This document shows, one piece after another, positions 2,826-12,737 of a DNA stretch of 33,901 nucleotides. This DNA comes from Bacillota bacterium (lineage in GTDB: Bacteria > Bacillota > GCA-003054495 > Carboxydocellales > JAJZSN01), in the NCBI GenBank assembly GCA_021849745.1, contig JAJZSN010000026.1:911-34811 (forward strand), read 5' to 3'. The notes under the pieces are model-generated. The model was not told the origin of the DNA. It ran no database searches and saw only the letters and a program-made list of their open reading frames with translations. Numbering within the stretch: position 1 is the first letter of the stretch; each line of letters opens with the position of its first letter. The translations under genes and the position numbers were made by a program.

Positions 2826-5075
2826 GTTACACCTCTAGCCCTAGTGAAAAAGGGACTGAAAGGTAATAGAACTTTGGGGGTGACCGTCTGCCTCTCCCGT
2901 TACACCTCTAGCCCTAGTGAAAAAGGGACTGAAAGCTGTATACCAAGCGTGCAGGTAATGTCAAAGTAACTAGTTACACCTCTAGCCCTAGTGAAAAAGG
3001 GACTGAAAGTCCTGGTAGATTCTAACTTCTCAGCGACTGCTTTAGAAGTTACACCTCTAGCCCTAGTGAAAAAGGGACTGAAAGACTGAATCCTTTACAG
3101 GGCGGTGAGGTAAATACCATGTTACACCTCTAGCCCTAGTGAAAAAGGGACTGAAAGCTTCCCCAAAGGTGGGGAGTACCAAGACGTTCTTGAGTTACAC
3201 CTCTAGCCCTAGTGAAAAAGGGACTGAAAGTTCTTTTTCTTCTGGGGTTGCGGTATGCCATGCCTGGTTACACCTCTAGCCCTAGTGAAAAAGGGACTGA
3301 AAGCCGGATGTTCAGTGGTTTTGCGGTTCAGGATTTTAGGTTACACCTCTAGCCCTAGTGAAAAAGGGACTGAAAGGCTATCGCAAAAGCATACTGGGAG
3401 GCCAAACAAAAGTTACACCTCTAGCCCTAGTGAAAAAGGGACTGAAAGTGAATTGGCTGCCTATGTTGCCGGTACCTCCGGGCACCGTTACACCTCTAGC
3501 CCTAGTGAAAAAGGGACTGAAAGCGAACTAAGGACCGGTAAAGAGCATAAAGATGCTAGTTACACCTCTAGCCCTAGTGAAAAAGGGACTGAAAGCCAGA
3601 CCTGCCGCCAGGTATTCGTACATTTTAATAGGGGTTACACCTCTAGCCCTAGTGAAAAAGGGACTGAAAGATTAAGACCAATCTCCAACCCAACTTTGAT
3701 TGTAGAAGTTACACCTCTAGCCCTAGTGAAAAAGGGACTGAAAGTACTTCTAACCAGGTTTTGGCGGAGTTAACGGCTCTGAGTTACACCTCTAGCCCTA
3801 GTGAAAAAGGGACTGAAAGGACTCAACAATGGGAAAGGTGTGGTTTTTGCTACCGGTGTTACACCTCTAGCCCTAGTGAAAAAGGGACTGAAAGCAAATA
3901 ACCTCTAAATGAAAGCGGAGAAGTAGGCAGAAGTTACACCTCTAGCCCTAGTGAAAAAGGGACTGAAAGTTCATGCTGTTTCCACGGACTCTAAGGGCAA
4001 ATGAGGGTTACACCTCTAGCCCTAGTGAAAAAGGGACTGAAAGTGCCATTGCCGGGCCTGTCTGTAGTGGATGGGGATCTAGTTACACCTCTAGCCCTAG
4101 TGAAAAAGGGACTGAAAGTGGGTAGTGCGCTGGGAACAAGTTCTAAATTGGAAGTGTTACACCTCTAGCCCTAGTGAAAAAGGGACTGAAAGTACAAGAA
4201 GATGCTGGACAAGATTGACCAAGAGGCCAGTTACACCTCTAGCCCTAGTGAAAAAGGGACTGAAAGGTTTCGCCAAGGTTAGCTTCAAAAACTTCCTTCA
4301 TTTGTTACACCTCTAGCCCTAGTGAAAAAGGGACTGAAAGACCATAACCCCAAAAAAGAGGCACGCCCCATCCCAGTTACACCTCTAGCCCTAGTGAAAA
4401 AGGGACTGAAAGATGTACTGGCCTGGGGATTGGTCAGGTGGCTTGTCACGTTACACCTCTAGCCCTAGTGAAAAAGGGACTGAAAGGAAGATGGATGTCA
4501 GCAAATATTTCTATAGGGTAAGTTACACCTCTAGCCCTAGTGAAAAAGGGACTGAAAGAGGATGTACCAAGGCGAGCCGTAAACGGGAGGAGAGAGTTAC
4601 ACCTCTAGCCCTAGTGAAAAAGGGACTGAAAGCTTGATAACCAAGGTTCTAAATCCACTGGCCCAAGCAAGTTACACCTCTAGCCCTAGTGAAAAAGGGA
4701 CTGAAAGACTTTTTCACATGCTTCATCAGATATTTTGTTTTTTGTTACACCTCTAGCCCTAGTGAAAAAGGGACTGAAAGCAGGTAGGCAGATTGTATCG
4801 GGGCCACGTTTTAAGGAGTTACACCTCTAGCCCTAGTGAAAAAGGGACTGAAAGATGGCCTGCTCCTGGGTGGTCACGGCCTTGGCTGCAAGTTACACCT
4901 CTAGCCCTAGTGAAAAAGGGACTGAAAGACAATAGTTTCAAGATTATTAACCATATTAGGAAATCGTTACACCTCTAGCCCTAGTGAAAAAGGGACTGAA
5001 AGCGCTCTAACAAGTAATCATGGCTGTTCTTTGAATAAGTTACACCTCTAGCCCTAGTGAAAAAGGGACTGAAAG

Positions 5076-5111
5076 TGGCGAGGGCATTAAGGCTGGCGAG
5101 GGCATTAAGGC
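5076..5111 (+). repeat. Spacer 31, an exact tandem duplication of an 18-mer
   Basis: The 36-bp spacer between repeats 31 and 32 is the 18-mer TGGCGAGGGCATTAAGGC twice in a row with no mismatch. No other spacer in the array shows internal duplication. The protospacer source may itself be a tandem repeat, because 18 bp is six codons and could encode a hexapeptide repeat in a target protein. Confidence 0.95.
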
Positions 5112-5924
5112 GTTACACCTCTAGCCCTAGTGAAAAAGGGACTGAAAGACATCATGACTTCCATCAAAAATCTTTTCCGGCCCAAGTTACACCTCTAGCC
5201 CTAGTGAAAAAGGGACTGAAAGCAGCGTTACGGGGAGAAGGAGGAAAAATAATGCGTGATGTTACACCTCTAGCCCTAGTGAAAAAGGGACTGAAAGCCC
5301 TCCAGGAGCGTTGCTCGGCGGCATCGGTGATTACGGTTACACCTCTAGCCCTAGTGAAAAAGGGACTGAAAGAAAAGCTAAGTATTGGCATGGTTCCGAA
5401 GAAGGCTTAGTTACACCTCTAGCCCTAGTGAAAAAGGGACTGAAAGTTTGGTACCTACATGGCCCAGGAATACCTTCATTTTGGTTACACCTCTAGCCCT
5501 AGTGAAAAAGGGACTGAAAGCTTATTAATCAACTCCTGTGCTTCGGACAATAACCGTTACACCTCTAGCCCTAGTGAAAAAGGGACTGAAAGGGATAATG
5601 GTCATATACTTTGCAGGAATAAGGCTTACGTTACACCTCTAGCCCTAGTGAAAAAGGGACTGAAAGCGGTGACGATTTCGCCGACAGGGATATCGCCTTG
5701 CCAGGTTACACCTCTAGCCCTAGTGAAAAAGGGACTGAAAGTGCCAGTCTGACCATGTTTCTGCTAAGTATTTACCTTGTTACACCTCTAGCCCTAGTGA
5801 AAAAGGGACTGAAAGGGACGATAACGAGTATTCCCGGGAGTTGTTTGACCAGTTACACCTCTAGCCCTAGTGAAAAAGGGACTGAAAGTCTATCCATACC
5901 ATCCTTAAGCATTTCCAAAATAGA

Positions 5925-5962
5925 GTTACACCTCTAGCCCTGACTGAAAAAGGGACTAAAAG
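5925..5962 (+). repeat. Degenerate terminal CRISPR repeat (leader-distal end)
   Basis: The last repeat keeps the first 16 bases of the consensus, then reads TGACTGAAAAAGGGACTAAAAG. That gives a one-base insertion with local changes and a G-to-A change in the 3' handle (TAAAAG for TGAAAG). A decayed terminal repeat marks the oldest, leader-distal end and confirms the array orientation. Confidence 0.93.
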
Positions 5963-6031
5963 GGGAAGGATTTTCTACCGTTACTGGAGAACTAATTAAA
6001 ATTTAATAACAAACACATGATTGGAGGCCAT

Positions 6032-7387: not shown

Positions 7388-7764
7388 ATGTCATCACCCC
7401 AACCTTTTATCGAAATAATCAAAGGCGGCCTCCAGACCACCGTCCAGGATTTGGGCCGCCCCGGGTACCAGCGCGCTGGAGTGGTGGTGGGCGGGGCCGC
7501 CGACAACCTCTCCGCCCGGCTGGACAACCTTTAAGGGTAATTGCCGGGCCCCAGCAGGAATGGTTCACCCCAGAAGCCATGGCAAGGCTGTTGACCGGGG
7601 AGTTTACTGTGACTTCCAGGTCAAATCGTATGGGTTTGGTGCTGGATGGCCCGCTTTTACCCAGGGCCAGGGAGGATGAATTCATCTCCGATGCCACTAC
7701 CTTTGGCAGCATCCAGGTTTTGCCCGGCGGTCAGCCGGTGGTTCTGATGGCTGAAGTTATGTAG
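7388..7764 (+). pseudogene. Remnant of 5-oxoprolinase subunit C / KipA-type carboxyltransferase (pxpC-like)
   Basis: The N-terminal part, starting at ATG 7388, encodes IEIIKGGLQTTVQDLGRPGYQ and AGVVVGGAADNLSARLDNL, the typical start of PxpC/KipA biotin-dependent carboxyltransferase-family proteins. It stops at TAA 7532-7534. A different frame then continues with RVIAGPQQEWFTPEAM, VTSRSNRMGLVLDGP and IQVLPGGQPVVLMAEVM, which belong to the C-terminal half, and ends at TAG 7762-7764. Against a normal protein of about 320-340 residues, roughly 150 central residues and the last 60 or so (after the VLMA motif) are missing. The two fragments are fused out of frame near 7530. The gene cannot make a working enzyme. 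No pxpA or pxpB partner is visible. Confidence 0.85.
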
Positions 7765-7946: not shown

Positions 7947-8348
7947 ATGAATGCGATTAATCCTTACATATCTGTCCTTGTATATTTCCTGGCTGTCTCA
8001 CTGGTAATCATAGCCGCTACCTTCCTGTTTAACCTGGTGGTCAGGTACAAGGTTTGGGACGAAATTCACAGGGGTAATGTGGCTGTGGCCCTGTCTTCCG
8101 GCGGGGTAGTCCTGGGGGTAGCCAACATCATGCACTATGCAATTCGTACCAATGATGATTTGATTAATACCCTCATCTGGGGCGGTTTTGGTACCGTCTT
8201 GCTGCTGGCCGTTTACCTGGCCTTTGAATTGTTAACCCCCAAGCTGCCGGTCAGTGAGGAGATAGCTAAAGGTAACAAGGCTGTTGGACTGATTTCCTTC
8301 TTTTATTCCTTGGCCTTCAGTTTCGTAATCGGGGCCAGTATTACCTAA
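7947..8348 (+). CDS. DUF350 (YjfL-like) integral membrane protein
   Basis: This 133-residue protein has four predicted membrane segments (about residues 7-34, 45-66, 72-96 and 112-132), arranged as two related pairs as in the DUF350 family. The segments carry small-residue-rich patterns such as SSGGVVLGVANI. In E. coli the DUF350 protein YjfL is encoded beside YjfC, a glutathionylspermidine-synthase-like ATP-grasp protein. The same pairing is seen here with the large gene at 9575. The purine-rich AAAGGGG directly abuts the ATG, which is closer than normal, but an in-frame TGA at 7938 excludes an upstream start. It opens a six-gene same-strand run with small gaps. Its biochemical activity is unknown. 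Confidence 0.85.
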   Translation: MNAINPYISVLVYFLAVSLVIIAATFLFNLVVRYKVWDEIHRGNVAVALSSGGVVLGVANIMHYAIRTNDDLINTLIWGGFGTVLLLAVYLAFELLTPKLPVSEEIAKGNKAVGLISFFYSLAFSFVIGASIT

Positions 8349-8360
8349 GGGGGTTCAGGT

Positions 8361-8531
8361 GTGAAAGATATATACATTTATGAATCTATAGATTCCTGGT
8401 TAAAAGAGGAGCCTGAGGCCACCCTTAAGGGTTATGTCCAAAGACATACCGACCTCCTGCTGGAAATCAGGGATGATAAGGGCTTCACCCAGTTTATCAA
8501 TTTGTCCAAGTTGTTTGCGGTGGTATACTAA
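8361..8531 (+). CDS. Small conserved-looking protein, possibly Sm-like (56 aa)
   Basis: GTG 8361 to TAA 8529-8531 encodes 56 residues. The gene lies 12 bp after the DUF350 gene with AAGGGGG upstream, and the next gene starts at the base after its stop, so it is tightly embedded in the operon. The second half (LKGYVQRHTDLLLEIRDD, then INLSKLFAVVY) has the spacing of a small five-stranded Sm/Hfq-type barrel: a G-x-V turn, an L-x-L-x-I-x-D strand and a final I-x-L-xx-hydrophobic strand. That comparison is my inference from pattern only. It is not a named family I can recognise. Confidence 0.7.
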   Translation: MKDIYIYESIDSWLKEEPEATLKGYVQRHTDLLLEIRDDKGFTQFINLSKLFAVVY

Positions 8532-9197
8532 ATGAGGAAAAAACTCAGCCAGGTGGATTTGCTGCAAAACTACCGCAACTGGCGGCAAGGAACCGGAGTT
8601 TTTGAATGTTTCCTCCGGGCCACTCCCTTTGTTTCATTACGACATTACCCAGATATGGAATTAGATTTATCGCCGCCGGAACTGCCGGAAGAGGATAGAA
8701 AACTGATTGCCCTAGTTGAAAAGCGCCTGAACCTGGAAACCTTATTAGTGGCAGACCTCGCCGCAGAAAGGGCGGCCGGTTGGGCCTATTACCTGCAAAA
8801 GGCCTTGGGAAGAAAGCCGGTATTGGTTTTTAACAACCCCTTGCACCCTAAGGGTCTGGTCGGCAATGAAGATTTCATCAGGGTACTTCTGGCCGGAGGG
8901 GAACATCTGGAGACTGTCAGCGAGGCAGTCGGCTATGCCTTTATCCTGGATTACAGCCGTTACGGAGATTTTTCCCCGGAAGAGTTTCGGGAGTTCTTTA
9001 ATAATCAGTATGAATTATCGGATGAAGATTTGCCCCATAGGGATTTATTAAATTTTTGCGGTATTAACAGGTTAGTGGTGGTAAGCGGGCAGCCTATCAA
9101 GGAAGACTTGGCTTATTACCTGCAGTATATTGAGAATCAGGGCCTGGAGGTTCTGATGGTTAACCCGCAGGAGGGTGAAGATATTGACGGAAGATAA
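8532..9197 (+). CDS. Uncharacterised protein of the DUF350/ATP-grasp locus
   Basis: This is a 221-residue, soluble, acidic-looking protein with no signal peptide or membrane segment. I do not recognise the family. Features include an N-terminal basic stretch (MRKKLSQVDLLQNYRNWRQG), a central GRKPVLVFNNPLHPKGLVGNE loop, an aromatic-rich DYSRYGDFSPEEFREFFNNQ, and a C-terminal half with a Rossmann-like beta-alpha rhythm (RLVVVSGQPIKEDLAYYLQYI, GLEVLMVNP). The ATG directly follows the stop of the small gene, and the 3' end overlaps the lipoprotein gene. Its position implies a role in the same process as the ATP-grasp enzyme. Confidence 0.8.
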   Translation: MRKKLSQVDLLQNYRNWRQGTGVFECFLRATPFVSLRHYPDMELDLSPPELPEEDRKLIALVEKRLNLETLLVADLAAERAAGWAYYLQKALGRKPVLVFNNPLHPKGLVGNEDFIRVLLAGGEHLETVSEAVGYAFILDYSRYGDFSPEEFREFFNNQYELSDEDLPHRDLLNFCGINRLVVVSGQPIKEDLAYYLQYIENQGLEVLMVNPQEGEDIDGR

Positions 9198-9564
9198 CAA
9201 AGCTATCCAGGACCAAGATAATCGTGAAACTGGGGAAGAGGCAGCCAGGGTCAAAGGATTGTTGGGCAAGAACAAGGCAGCAGCCCTTGGTTTGGCGGTT
9301 CTTCTAGCCACCGGCACATTGCTGACCGGTTGTGGCGGCCCGGAGCGGGAATCGGCCGGGGCCCAATGGGAAGTAGTAGAAGATGAAGAAGAGGATGAGG
9401 AGGCTAATACCTTCTATCATGGCGGTTATTTTGCGGCAGGGTATTTTTTGCGCAGCGGCCGACCGGTGATAGATTTGGATGGCAAGGTTAAATGGAGCAA
9501 ACCCAAAGGTAAGTATAAATCCGGAGGCTATGGTGCCATCCGGGGCGGCAGCGCTATTAGTTAA
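9184..9564 (+). CDS. Small acidic lipoprotein with glycine/serine-rich tail
   Basis: The start was chosen as TTG 9184, because AGGAGGG (9169-9175) lies 8 bp upstream. The in-frame GTG at 9175 abuts that same site and would add three residues. The product is 126 residues. A soluble, charged N-terminus of about 30 residues precedes a hydrophobic stretch ending in LLTGC, a lipobox with Cys50. An acidic linker follows (EVVEDEEEDEE), then FYHGGYFAAGYFLRSGRP and a basic, glycine/serine-rich tail (KYKSGGYGAIRGGSAIS). The unusually long N-terminus before the hydrophobic segment makes signal peptidase II processing less certain. It occupies the place taken by the small protein YjfM in the E. coli yjf locus. 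A function as substrate of the adjacent amide ligase is an inference. Confidence 0.75.
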   Translation: MTEDNKAIQDQDNRETGEEAARVKGLLGKNKAAALGLAVLLATGTLLTGCGGPERESAGAQWEVVEDEEEDEEANTFYHGGYFAAGYFLRSGRPVIDLDGKVKWSKPKGKYKSGGYGAIRGGSAIS

Positions 9565-9574
9565 GGCGGAGTAT

Positions 9575-12115
9575 ATGTTTAGTCAACGGGATTTTACGGA
9601 AAAGCTATTATTCGATTACTACCTGGTGAGTTCGGTACGGGAAGGGGAGGTGGCTTCCCGGTTTCCTTTTTATCTGGACCGGGGGGTTTTTGAGGAAATG
9701 AAGGGGGCGGCCCTGGTATTAGACGGACTGGTCAGGAGGCTGATTGAGGCCTATTTGGCAGGGGAATCTAGGGTAGACCTTTATGTAGAGGAGTTTCCAC
9801 ATCAGCAAAAGGTTCAGGGCCTCAACTTACCATTACCTCCTTTCTTCTGGGTGCGTTTTGATGCCTTTGTTAGACCGGAAGGCGGCATTTTTTACACTGA
9901 GTTCAATTATGATAAGCCCTGTGCTCAGCGTGAACTGCTGTTTAATAACCTGATGGATCCCCTGGGGAATCCTAACCGCAATTTCCGGGAGGAATTTGTA
10001 AAGGGTCTTGAACAACTATGGGCCGCTTTTGGCCAAGGAACTCCTAATCCGACCGTGGGAATCATGGTGGACCCTAACCATTACGAGGAACTGCACCTGG
10101 CCTATCTGTATAAAGACTTGTTGCAAGATGCAGGGTATCCTTGCGTCATCGCCGGGGGCAAGAACTTTAAGGTATCCGGCAACCGGGCCTACGCCTTCGA
10201 CGAGGCGGTAGATATACTCCTGCGCCAGTATCCTATGGAACATGGTGATGAAATAGAGAATTACCCGGCCCTGCTGGAATTGTATGAAGGGGGTGGGGTA
10301 TTGCTGGTCAATGACCCCAGAGCCCTTCTGGGTCAGGGGAAAGCACTTTTTGCCACTCTTTGGGAACTGGTGGAAAAGGGCGGTTTTCCCTTATCCGGGG
10401 AAGAAGAGGAGGCCATCCGCAGAACCATCCCCCGTACCTGGTTGTATGGTACTGCATGGCGGGAGAAGCTGCGGGCGGAAAAAGATGCTTTTGTTGTTAA
10501 AGGTAACTACAGCCGGTATAGTGAAGAGGTTTATATCGGGCGGCTCCACACCAGGGAGCAATGGGATAAGGTTTTGGAGTATCTTGATGAAAACGCCAAA
10601 TTACATATAGTCCAGGAGTTTTGCCCCAGTGAGCCATGGGTGGTGCGCAAATACAGCGGCCAAAGTTATGGAGACACCACAGCTTATGGTAACTTCGGGG
10701 TGTATCTGATTAACGGCGCTTTCGGCGGCTTGTGTGCCCGCTGGAGCGGCGATTTGCTGACTTCCGACCTTTCCTGGTTTAGTCCGGTAGGTATCCGGGA
10801 ACATTCCTTGACTTTAAACCACTGGTGGGCTGAACCGGTACAAGGCGAGAAAAACCCTTCAGCATCCAAGACTCTTTCCGGAGGTCTTGAGCCTTCGGCA
10901 CTGGTATCCTGCCAACGGAAGCAAATCTGGCGGGATATCTACGATCGGGCCGCTTTCACCCTTGACTACACCGGCGGCTATACCGGGGACCAGGAGGCTT
11001 TTGCCCTGTCCTGCCTGGAATTGGAGCAGCCCCTGGTGGAGGAGTTGTACCGGGCTTCGGAGGGTTTTCTCCGGGTTTTCGCCAAGACCCTGGACTTGGT
11101 TCTGGAGCAACCTCAACTATTAGGCCCTGTGCTGGGCATCAGTGAACCTCTGCTGGACTTGGTTGCCAGCAGACAGACTTCGTCCCTGGGGTTATTGGGC
11201 CGCCTGGATTGGGTAGTAGACCACCAGGGCAGGCTGAAGCTCCTGGAATACAACGGGGAAACTCCCGCCGGTCTGTTGGAAAGCGTCGGCCTTAACCCCT
11301 TGGTAGCTAAAGCAGCCGGGGAGAGGGGGCGCCGGTTGGGTAAAGATCCTAATCAGGGTTTGCCAAATTTAATAAGGGCTGAATTTACCAGGATTGTTGA
11401 AGATTTTTCCCGGCAGCGGGAGATTAAAACTATTGGTTTTGTTAGTTCTACATATTATGAGGACTGGTACCACACCCGGCATCTTTTGGCACTGGTTAAG
11501 GAACTGCCCTATCAAATGGTATTAGGGGAAGTCTCCGGGCTTCGGACTCTAGAGGACCGGCTATGGCTGTATGATACCCCTTTGGATGCTGTTTTTCGCT
11601 ACTATCCCCTGGATTGGCTGGAAGATTTCCCGGGGGTATTGGCCGTCCTTGGCCGGGGAACGATGAGTATCAATCCGGTTCATACCTATATCCTCCAGAG
11701 CAAGGCCTTGTTGGCCCTCATCTGGGAATTGGCTGAAAAGGGTTACTATGGCCAAGAGGAGCTGCAGCTTATCCGCCAGTACCTACCCAAAACCTCTCTG
11801 ACACCTCAGGGGTTGGGGGATTTTGTGGTCAAACCTTACTTTAGCCGGGAGGGCCAGGGTGTAGTATACTCAGAAGATTTGCGGCCCGGTCAACTGCGGG
11901 AGCTTTCCGAAGAGGACGTGGTTTTCCAGGAGCGGGTCTACCTTCAGCAGTTAGGGATAGATTTGTATCATGGCCAAGGGAAAAGCCGTGTACCGGCTTT
12001 TCCGGTGCTTGGGGTTTTTACCGTGGGGGATAAAGCTGTGGGGATTTATACCAGGGCCGGCGCCGGAGTGACAGGTAAAGAGGCGGTCTACCTGCCTGCC
12101 TTTATACGGGAGTGA
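9575..12115 (+). CDS. Tandem glutathionylspermidine-synthase-like ATP-grasp protein (two modules)
   Basis: The ATG at 9575 follows AAGGCGGAG and gives 846 residues. The reading from 9479 lies inside the lipoprotein gene and lacks a good site. Two GSP-synthase-like units are visible. Module 1 has FYTEFNYDKP (about 106-115), LVNDPRALLGQGKALFATLW and DAFVVKGNYSR (about 304-314, with the ATP-grasp Lys). Module 2 has LLEYNGETPAG (about 556-566), SINPVHTYILQSKALLALIW and GDFVVKPYFSREGQG (about 748-762). The border is near residue 440-450. Typical YjfC-like proteins have one unit of about 380-400 residues, so this is a duplication or fusion. Family members form amide bonds from ATP, a carboxylate and an amine. 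GSP synthase itself makes glutathionylspermidine, but the substrates here are unknown. No amidase domain is present. Confidence 0.85.
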   Translation: MFSQRDFTEKLLFDYYLVSSVREGEVASRFPFYLDRGVFEEMKGAALVLDGLVRRLIEAYLAGESRVDLYVEEFPHQQKVQGLNLPLPPFFWVRFDAFVRPEGGIFYTEFNYDKPCAQRELLFNNLMDPLGNPNRNFREEFVKGLEQLWAAFGQGTPNPTVGIMVDPNHYEELHLAYLYKDLLQDAGYPCVIAGGKNFKVSGNRAYAFDEAVDILLRQYPMEHGDEIENYPALLELYEGGGVLLVNDPRALLGQGKALFATLWELVEKGGFPLSGEEEEAIRRTIPRTWLYGTAWREKLRAEKDAFVVKGNYSRYSEEVYIGRLHTREQWDKVLEYLDENAKLHIVQEFCPSEPWVVRKYSGQSYGDTTAYGNFGVYLINGAFGGLCARWSGDLLTSDLSWFSPVGIREHSLTLNHWWAEPVQGEKNPSASKTLSGGLEPSALVSCQRKQIWRDIYDRAAFTLDYTGGYTGDQEAFALSCLELEQPLVEELYRASEGFLRVFAKTLDLVLEQPQLLGPVLGISEPLLDLVASRQTSSLGLLGRLDWVVDHQGRLKLLEYNGETPAGLLESVGLNPLVAKAAGERGRRLGKDPNQGLPNLIRAEFTRIVEDFSRQREIKTIGFVSSTYYEDWYHTRHLLALVKELPYQMVLGEVSGLRTLEDRLWLYDTPLDAVFRYYPLDWLEDFPGVLAVLGRGTMSINPVHTYILQSKALLALIWELAEKGYYGQEELQLIRQYLPKTSLTPQGLGDFVVKPYFSREGQGVVYSEDLRPGQLRELSEEDVVFQERVYLQQLGIDLYHGQGKSRVPAFPVLGVFTVGDKAVGIYTRAGAGVTGKEAVYLPAFIRE

Positions 12116-12122
12116 TTTAAAA

Positions 12123-12737
12123 ATGAGTAAAATTAAAAGCGTTGACAAAAACGGCAAATATACCATTCTTATTGTGGGAATTTCATTTCTGGTCATATTG
12201 GCATTCATTATATATTTTCTGTTATTCTCCACTGCCAAAGATTACCGGTTGATTAACCTTGAAGTGAGGGAAGCCATGATTGCCCAGATGGATAATTCGG
12301 ATAAACCCTGGATTAGGGTTTCGGTACCCGGTTTGGAAAATGAGAAGGAACTATGGATAGAAGTCTCGAAGAATTTCTACAATGGTCATTATCACGGTCA
12401 ACAAGTGGGTATCTTATTGGGTCAGTATAACGAAAATGATAAGAAAATGGAAAAAGGCAAGAGGTATATGCGGCTTAAGCGGCAGATTTGGGGAGCGGAA
12501 GAAATCTATAACAGCCTGGAGGAAGCTAAGGCCGCCAATCCAGTGAAAAAGTATACTTCCTTCGGGAAGGTTGTGGAGAAAGATCAGGGAGTACTGGTTC
12601 TCGACCTGGATGGCAAGAAGGCCAGGTCGGTGGTGGAGAAGGAGTTATATGACCGGATTAAGGTGGGTGACACCGTAAAAGGGCGGTTTGAGAGTATCGG
12701 GGAGTACACCAAGTTTTTCGGAATTGAGAAAGGATAA
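12123..12737 (+). CDS. Membrane-anchored protein of unknown function
   Basis: This is a 204-residue protein beginning 7 bp after the ATP-grasp gene, with GGGAG about 9 bp before the ATG. One N-terminal membrane segment (about 14-36, ILIVGISFLVILAFIIYFLL) is followed by an extracytoplasmic domain of about 165 residues. The C-terminal 65 residues (YTSFGKVVEKDQGVLVLDLD to VGDTVKGRFESIGEYTKFFG) look like an all-beta barrel. I do not recognise the family. As the last gene of the run, it probably acts outside the membrane with the lipoprotein. Confidence 0.8.
   Translation: MSKIKSVDKNGKYTILIVGISFLVILAFIIYFLLFSTAKDYRLINLEVREAMIAQMDNSDKPWIRVSVPGLENEKELWIEVSKNFYNGHYHGQQVGILLGQYNENDKKMEKGKRYMRLKRQIWGAEEIYNSLEEAKAANPVKKYTSFGKVVEKDQGVLVLDLDGKKARSVVEKELYDRIKVGDTVKGRFESIGEYTKFFGIEKG

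Follow-up and report, generated by a model that had tools for sequence, protein, structure and literature searches.

The window is a 33,901-nucleotide stretch of a Bacillota genome of the Carboxydocellales (contig JAJZSN010000026.1, positions 911 to 34,811), and it contains a block of six genes at 7947-12737, all on the + strand. Gene 1 (7947-8348) and gene 2 (8361-8531) are separated by 12 bp, gene 3 (8532-9197) follows gene 2 with a spacing of 0 bp, gene 4 (9175-9564) overlaps gene 3 by 23 bp, and gene 6 (12123-12737) begins 7 bp after gene 5, which ends at 12115. The raw start of gene 5 at 9479, with an 86-bp overlap with gene 4, is a miscall. The N-termini of the orthologs match the residues after an ATG at 9575, and the ribosome-binding sequence AAGGCGGAG (9563-9571, + strand) lies just before it; this ATG is therefore taken as the start. 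Gene 5 then encodes 846 aa and leaves a 10-bp gap after gene 4. The tight packing of six same-strand genes described in an earlier note on this DNA is real, and only details (the start of gene 5) are corrected. Scans for intrinsic terminators and promoters gave nothing usable, and genes 2, 3, 4, and 6 have no Pfam family above cut-off.

Just upstream of the block, at 7388-7764, lies what remains of a carboxyltransferase gene. It matches PF02626 CT_A_B over 74 aa with E 1.7e-20 and is apparently shortened and frameshifted. The window also contains a CRISPR locus, with genes for Cas1, Cas2, Cas4, and a Csa1-type exonuclease at 61-2687, followed by an array at about 2826-5990. Its repeat (GTTACACCTCTAGCCCTAGTGAAAAAGGGACTGAAAG) is about 37 nt long and occurs at least 42 times, with a spacing of 72-75 nt.

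Gene 5 (9575-12115, + strand) encodes a two-module ATP-grasp amide ligase, as identified by PF03738, the structural model, and Foldseek. The N-terminal module (residues 1-432, 9575-10870) is GSPS/CP_ATPgrasp-like and matches circularly permuted ATP-grasp models and the PDB entry 3n6x. The C-terminal module (residues 433-846, 10871-12115) is YgiC/YjfC-like, with a PF03738 match above cut-off (E 1e-44) and a YgiC profile match at E 8.5e-17. The AlphaFold2 model from a 31-row alignment has a mean pLDDT of 88.5. Its best Foldseek matches in the PDB are GspS (2io7), YgiC (7uk8), YjfC (7uk6), glutathione synthetases, and 3n6x, and the comparison with YgiC gives an E-value of 1.4e-16 and a target TM of 0.79. 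The N-terminal module has R94, D96, E109, N111, K309, and R314 invariant in 31/31 sequences; the C-terminal module has R543, D545, E558, and N560 invariant in 31/31, and K753 and R758 in 30/30 (one row is truncated). The Arg, Asp, Glu, and Asn of this RxD...ExN pattern align with GRMDF...EYN in the E. coli enzyme GspS, in which the Asp, Glu, and Asn bind magnesium. The earlier reading of a two-module glutathionylspermidine-synthase-like enzyme is thus confirmed by the PF03738 and CP-ATP-grasp matches and by the GspS/YgiC fold of the model. Neither module has lost its ATP and metal ligands, as RxD...ExN and the Lys/Arg pair are kept in both across the 31 sequences. GspS and trypanothione synthetase share the ATP-grasp fold and the catalytic motif with gene 5. 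In contrast, gene 5 has no amidase domain, is fused to a second ligase module, and gives no sign of a glutathione substrate. No signal peptide is seen in gene 5.

In the tree, the N-terminal modules group with single ATP-grasps encoded beside GCS2 (glutamate-cysteine ligase family 2) genes with a support of 100/98, and the C-terminal modules group with YgiC-like enzymes. Since the modules come from two subfamilies, the sequences argue for a fusion and not a recent duplication, with an exact placement that is unsure on account of long branches. A recent tandem duplication of one module is rejected by the same tree, with the caution that long branches meet in it. One module could alternatively be a structural or regulatory pseudo-ligase, which would make the enzyme functionally the same as a single-module YgiC or YjfC, with a choice of substrate that overlaps the proposal given below. 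The N-terminal module is the more distant from characterised ligases, but its RxD...ExN, Lys, and Arg are invariant in all 31 sequences, and a pseudo-ligase is accordingly considered unlikely.

Separately from the block, Bacillota pair a GCS2-family gene (tested in the locus L042) with a GSPS-like ATP-grasp of about 445 aa in L042-L046 and L048. The single 864-aa frame of L048 may be a fusion of the GCS2-family gene and the ATP-grasp. The pair represents a possible small-peptide pathway.

A pattern search of genome contigs with a single protein gave no match. A profile from a 3-row ortholog alignment, run against a collection that spans 84,980 species, gave 32 loci, nearly all from Clostridia, and the two full-length relatives obtained by whole-genome search are also among them. 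The set without duplicates comprises 32 loci including the window, all fetched through gene 5 alone. In 32/32 of these loci, which belong mostly to Clostridium and other Clostridia, genes 2-5 keep their order and share a strand, which is more than chance would give. An independent check agrees: among 399 Bacillota genomes, the gene 3 profile matches the three that have the full two-module enzyme and none of the other 396. Comparison within the order and class of the host covers four genomes. G003, from the same order as the host, has a C-terminal piece of the ligase, 72% identical, at the edge of a contig of 3.2 kb. Searches of this assembly, which is 83% complete, found no gene 3 and no gene 6.

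The outer genes are far less constant. DUF350, the family of gene 1, adjoins the block in 21 of the 32 loci, as a full-length copy upstream of gene 2 in 8 and as a half-length copy (67-87 aa), mostly downstream, in 13; the other 11 loci have no adjacent copy. Ten block genomes without an adjacent copy were tested, and DUF350 was undetected genome-wide in seven of them, which rules it out as an essential partner. A relative of gene 6 occurs at the same place in 7/32 loci; in C. drakei, C. carboxidivorans, and C. magnum, a small membrane protein of another kind is encoded after the ligase. All six genes are found together in a subgroup of only 7/32 loci. The core consists of genes 2-5, with DUF350 and gene 6 as lineage-dependent accessories, and it occurs in several arrangements, among them the six-gene form. 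The co-occurrence of six genes envisaged in the earlier note therefore holds for genes 2-5 and fails for DUF350 and gene 6, and the six genes do not form an obligate unit. This distribution also bears on the idea of a device against envelope stress, with DUF350 and gene 6 at its centre and the ATP-grasp as a regulator. Excerpts from PMC11237479 do place DUF350/YjfL genes in PspA-linked operons with GSPS-like ligases. The block of the window has no PspA family gene, and genes 2-5 remain in the seven genomes in which DUF350 is undetected, which makes such a device very improbable.

Gene 1 encodes a DUF350 membrane protein of the YjfL family with 133 aa, and the family assigned to it earlier is upheld by PF03994 (E 3.4e-31, 108.5 bits against a cut-off of 26). 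Half-length DUF350 proteins (67-87 aa) occur in L054-L081, many of them from Clostridium, and align with the latter half of the Pfam model (L059 was tested). This suggests that DUF350 is a duplicated unit. Gene 6 encodes 204 aa with one N-terminal membrane segment, in line with its earlier description as membrane-anchored, and a beta-rich domain; its profile search gave chance-level matches only.

Gene 2 encodes a predicted beta-rich protein of 56 aa that belongs to no known family and has profile matches in all loci. It is a single unit of 56-63 aa in some loci, and many Clostridium loci have a double form of about 127 aa with two repeats. At the sequence level its description as Sm-like is unsupported, as no LSM match was found in Pfam at E<=1 or among PDB profile matches at E<=10; only weak unrelated matches were obtained, and NF041655 scores below the cut-off of that model. 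Gene 3 encodes an alpha/beta protein of 221 aa with the conserved motifs HPxGLVG and NNQYE..EDLP in a 31-sequence alignment. Its fold family is unassigned, since searches with the AlphaFold2 model (pLDDT 89) against the PDB and viral folds gave nothing at E<=0.001. Genes 2 and 3 represent two previously undescribed obligate partner families.

Gene 4 encodes a lipoprotein-like protein of 129 aa with a hydrophobic segment, an acidic stretch, and a Gly/Ser tail. The hydrophobic segment contains the lipobox-like LLTGC, of which Cys53 (9331-9333, + strand) is the candidate lipidated residue. The lipobox Cys is present in the window and in most orthologs, and L032 and L033 have no Cys at that place. 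The term lipoprotein, used for gene 4 in the earlier note, thus fits commonly and not universally. The tail SGGYGAIRGGSAIS (9520-9561, + strand) has Tyr at -11 and a terminal Ser, and its Arg lies one place off -7. Tails of the orthologs are of the type Tyr-Ser-Gly-x-Lys-Gly-Gly-Ser-x-Ser. The last residue is Ser in 26 and Gly in 5 of the 31 orthologs, where shuffling gives a mean of 18 and a maximum of 27. Tyr is found at -11 in 24/31 (shuffled mean 1.5, maximum 7), and a basic residue at -7 in 23/31 (shuffled mean 3.6, maximum 11). These values come from 5,000 rounds of shuffling of the last 40 residues, which ignore the relatedness of the orthologs. The register of the tail is fixed to the C-terminus although the length of the orthologs varies from 93 to 154 aa, and this is what a ligase that activates the terminal carboxylate would demand. 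A graspetide-like reaction, in which side chains of the acidic stretch and the Lys and Ser of the tail would be cross-linked instead of the terminal carboxylate, would draw on the acidic stretch and the Lys/Ser-rich tail of gene 4. The acidic part is, however, variable among orthologs where the C-terminal register is fixed, and the GspS/YgiC fold belongs to a family that acts on a terminal carboxylate. Such cross-linking is considered highly unlikely.

Gene 4 directly precedes the ligase, as yjfM and ygiB do in E. coli. The two E. coli loci are ygiB-ygiC and yjfI-yjfJ-yjfK-yjfL-yjfM-yjfC, and a DUF1190 lipoprotein-like gene lies directly before the ligase in both. In E. coli, Rhizobium, Rossellomorea, Geobacillus, and other Bacillota, the gene directly upstream of a single-module ligase also encodes a partner with a Gly/Ser end. 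Their C-termini are ...RGGYGRSSSARGHWGG in YjfM, ...SSRSMGG in YgiB, ...RSSFSFGG in Rhizobium, ...SSSKGGFGG in Rossellomorea, and ...KSSAGS in Geobacillus. Gene 4 behaves as a DUF1190-like partner, with a membrane-directing N-terminus, a tail ending in Gly/Ser, and a position directly before the ligase. It has no Pfam match, DUF1190 included, and its alignment with YjfM (E 0.24) is not significant; the shared tail could thus be a convergence in Gly/Ser-rich sequence. Three single-module loci (L038, L039, and L040) contain a Gly/Ser-tailed partner before the ligase, DUF350 after it, and a conserved protein of ~152 aa (MAQLEYRLLDEE..., no Pfam match) that represents an undescribed partner family.

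The block resembles the E. coli YgiC and YjfC loci in the sequence and fold of the C-terminal module, in the Gly/Ser-tailed lipoprotein-like gene upstream, and in the nearness of DUF350 in yjf. It differs from them in its two fused modules, its obligate genes 2 and 3, and a gene 4 that is not alignable with DUF1190. The six genes also lack the PspA, DUF2170, and DUF2491 of yjfIJKLMC. The earlier comparison with yjf was right about these absent partners and missed yjfM (DUF1190), whose place gene 4 takes. Single-module loci of Bacillota (L035-L041, L047, and L099) likewise have a tight cluster of ligase, DUF350, and Gly/Ser-tailed lipoprotein, but have one module and neither gene 2 nor gene 3. 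YgiC and YjfC of E. coli are reported as peptide-spermidine ligases in the title of Pederick et al. 2023, as cited in PMC12568646, and carry the same name in RefSeq. Excerpts from PMC11237479 describe operons of GSPS-like ATP-grasp, DUF350, DUF1190, and DUF2491 genes, with DUF4247-DUF2617 and band-7 variants. These share the association of ligase, DUF350, and lipoprotein with the block; unlike it, the variants described in the same excerpts all lack a two-module ligase as well as genes 2 and 3. In the part of the literature covered, no description of a two-module enzyme with genes 2 and 3 was found. The association of ligase, DUF350, and lipoprotein is already described, and single-module ligases have an activity assigned to them. 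The two-module enzyme, in its block with genes 2 and 3, is related to the E. coli peptide-spermidine ligases and was previously undescribed.

From the synteny, the fold, the conserved catalytic residues, and the conserved tail, we infer that genes 2-5 constitute a system for ligation to a protein C-terminus, a reading held with slightly better than even confidence. Gene 5 would activate the C-terminus of gene 4 and add an amine, perhaps a polyamine, and the other module would carry out a second ligation. The ligation chemistry of gene 5 is well supported, the C-terminus of gene 4 is a fairly well supported candidate for the substrate, and a polyamine is a tentative choice for the amine. GspS joins the glycine carboxylate of glutathione to spermidine, and the C-terminus of gene 4 would be the counterpart of that carboxylate. 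The position of gene 4 in the place of yjfM, with the same type of Gly/Ser tail, points to the lipoprotein C-terminus as the substrate. The envelope-linked amide ligation of the earlier note agrees with the GspS/YgiC fold, the intact residues, and the membrane and lipoprotein neighbours.

In the proposed course of events, gene 5 would act in the cytoplasm, and each module would convert a carboxylate to an acyl-phosphate at the expense of ATP before coupling it to an amine. The YgiC-like C-terminal module would attach the amine, most plausibly a polyamine, to gene 4. That both active sites are intact suggests the formation of two amide bonds, and the N-terminal module may form the second one, at the other end of the same amine or in another step. 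Since the ligase and the lipoprotein would finally be separated by the membrane, modification before export must be assumed. The gene 4 precursor would then be exported and, in most species, lipid-anchored, with the modified tail outside the membrane. Being constant in the block and specific, genes 2 and 3 probably serve in recognition or delivery of the tail, and DUF350 and gene 6 may be accessory membrane parts.

It is conceivable, with a rather low probability, that the two modules work in sequence on one amine. The C-terminal module would add a polyamine to the C-terminus of gene 4, and the N-terminal module would join the free end to a second carboxylate, of another gene 4 tail or of a second molecule. 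The small surface protein would then be covalently tethered at its C-terminus via a diamine linker, with gene 3 as a dedicated adaptor. Somewhat more weight, still well short of an even chance, is given to an enzyme that makes a small metabolite, such as a peptide-polyamine conjugate or another amide, with gene 4 bound at the surface as its sensor, carrier, or buffer. The product of GspS is such a small metabolite, and the N-terminal modules group with ATP-grasps beside GCS2 genes, a small-peptide pairing. Against this, no gene for a metabolite precursor is constant in the block, and a sensor would not need a tail register tied to its C-terminus.

For the ligation to the gene 4 C-terminus, the counts of polyamine genes neither favour polyamines beyond the background nor exclude them. 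AdoMet decarboxylase is not enriched, as it is present in 18 of 26 block genomes compared with 160 of 200 Bacillota, and a spermidine dependence by co-occurrence is unsupported. Carboxynorspermidine decarboxylase is found in 5 of the 8 block genomes without AdoMet decarboxylase. The genome of the window, which is 86% complete, showed neither enzyme.

To our knowledge, the natural protein substrates of YgiC/YjfC-type ligases have not been established. What makes the block interesting is the proposed protein substrate that it offers for this entire family of ligases: an upstream partner with a C-terminal register, present in two-module and single-module loci including those of E. coli, is a concrete candidate. 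The block further adds a fused ligase of two subfamilies and two undescribed obligate partner families. Its occurrence in culturable Clostridium species (C. beijerinckii and C. carboxidivorans) makes deletion and mass spectrometry feasible.
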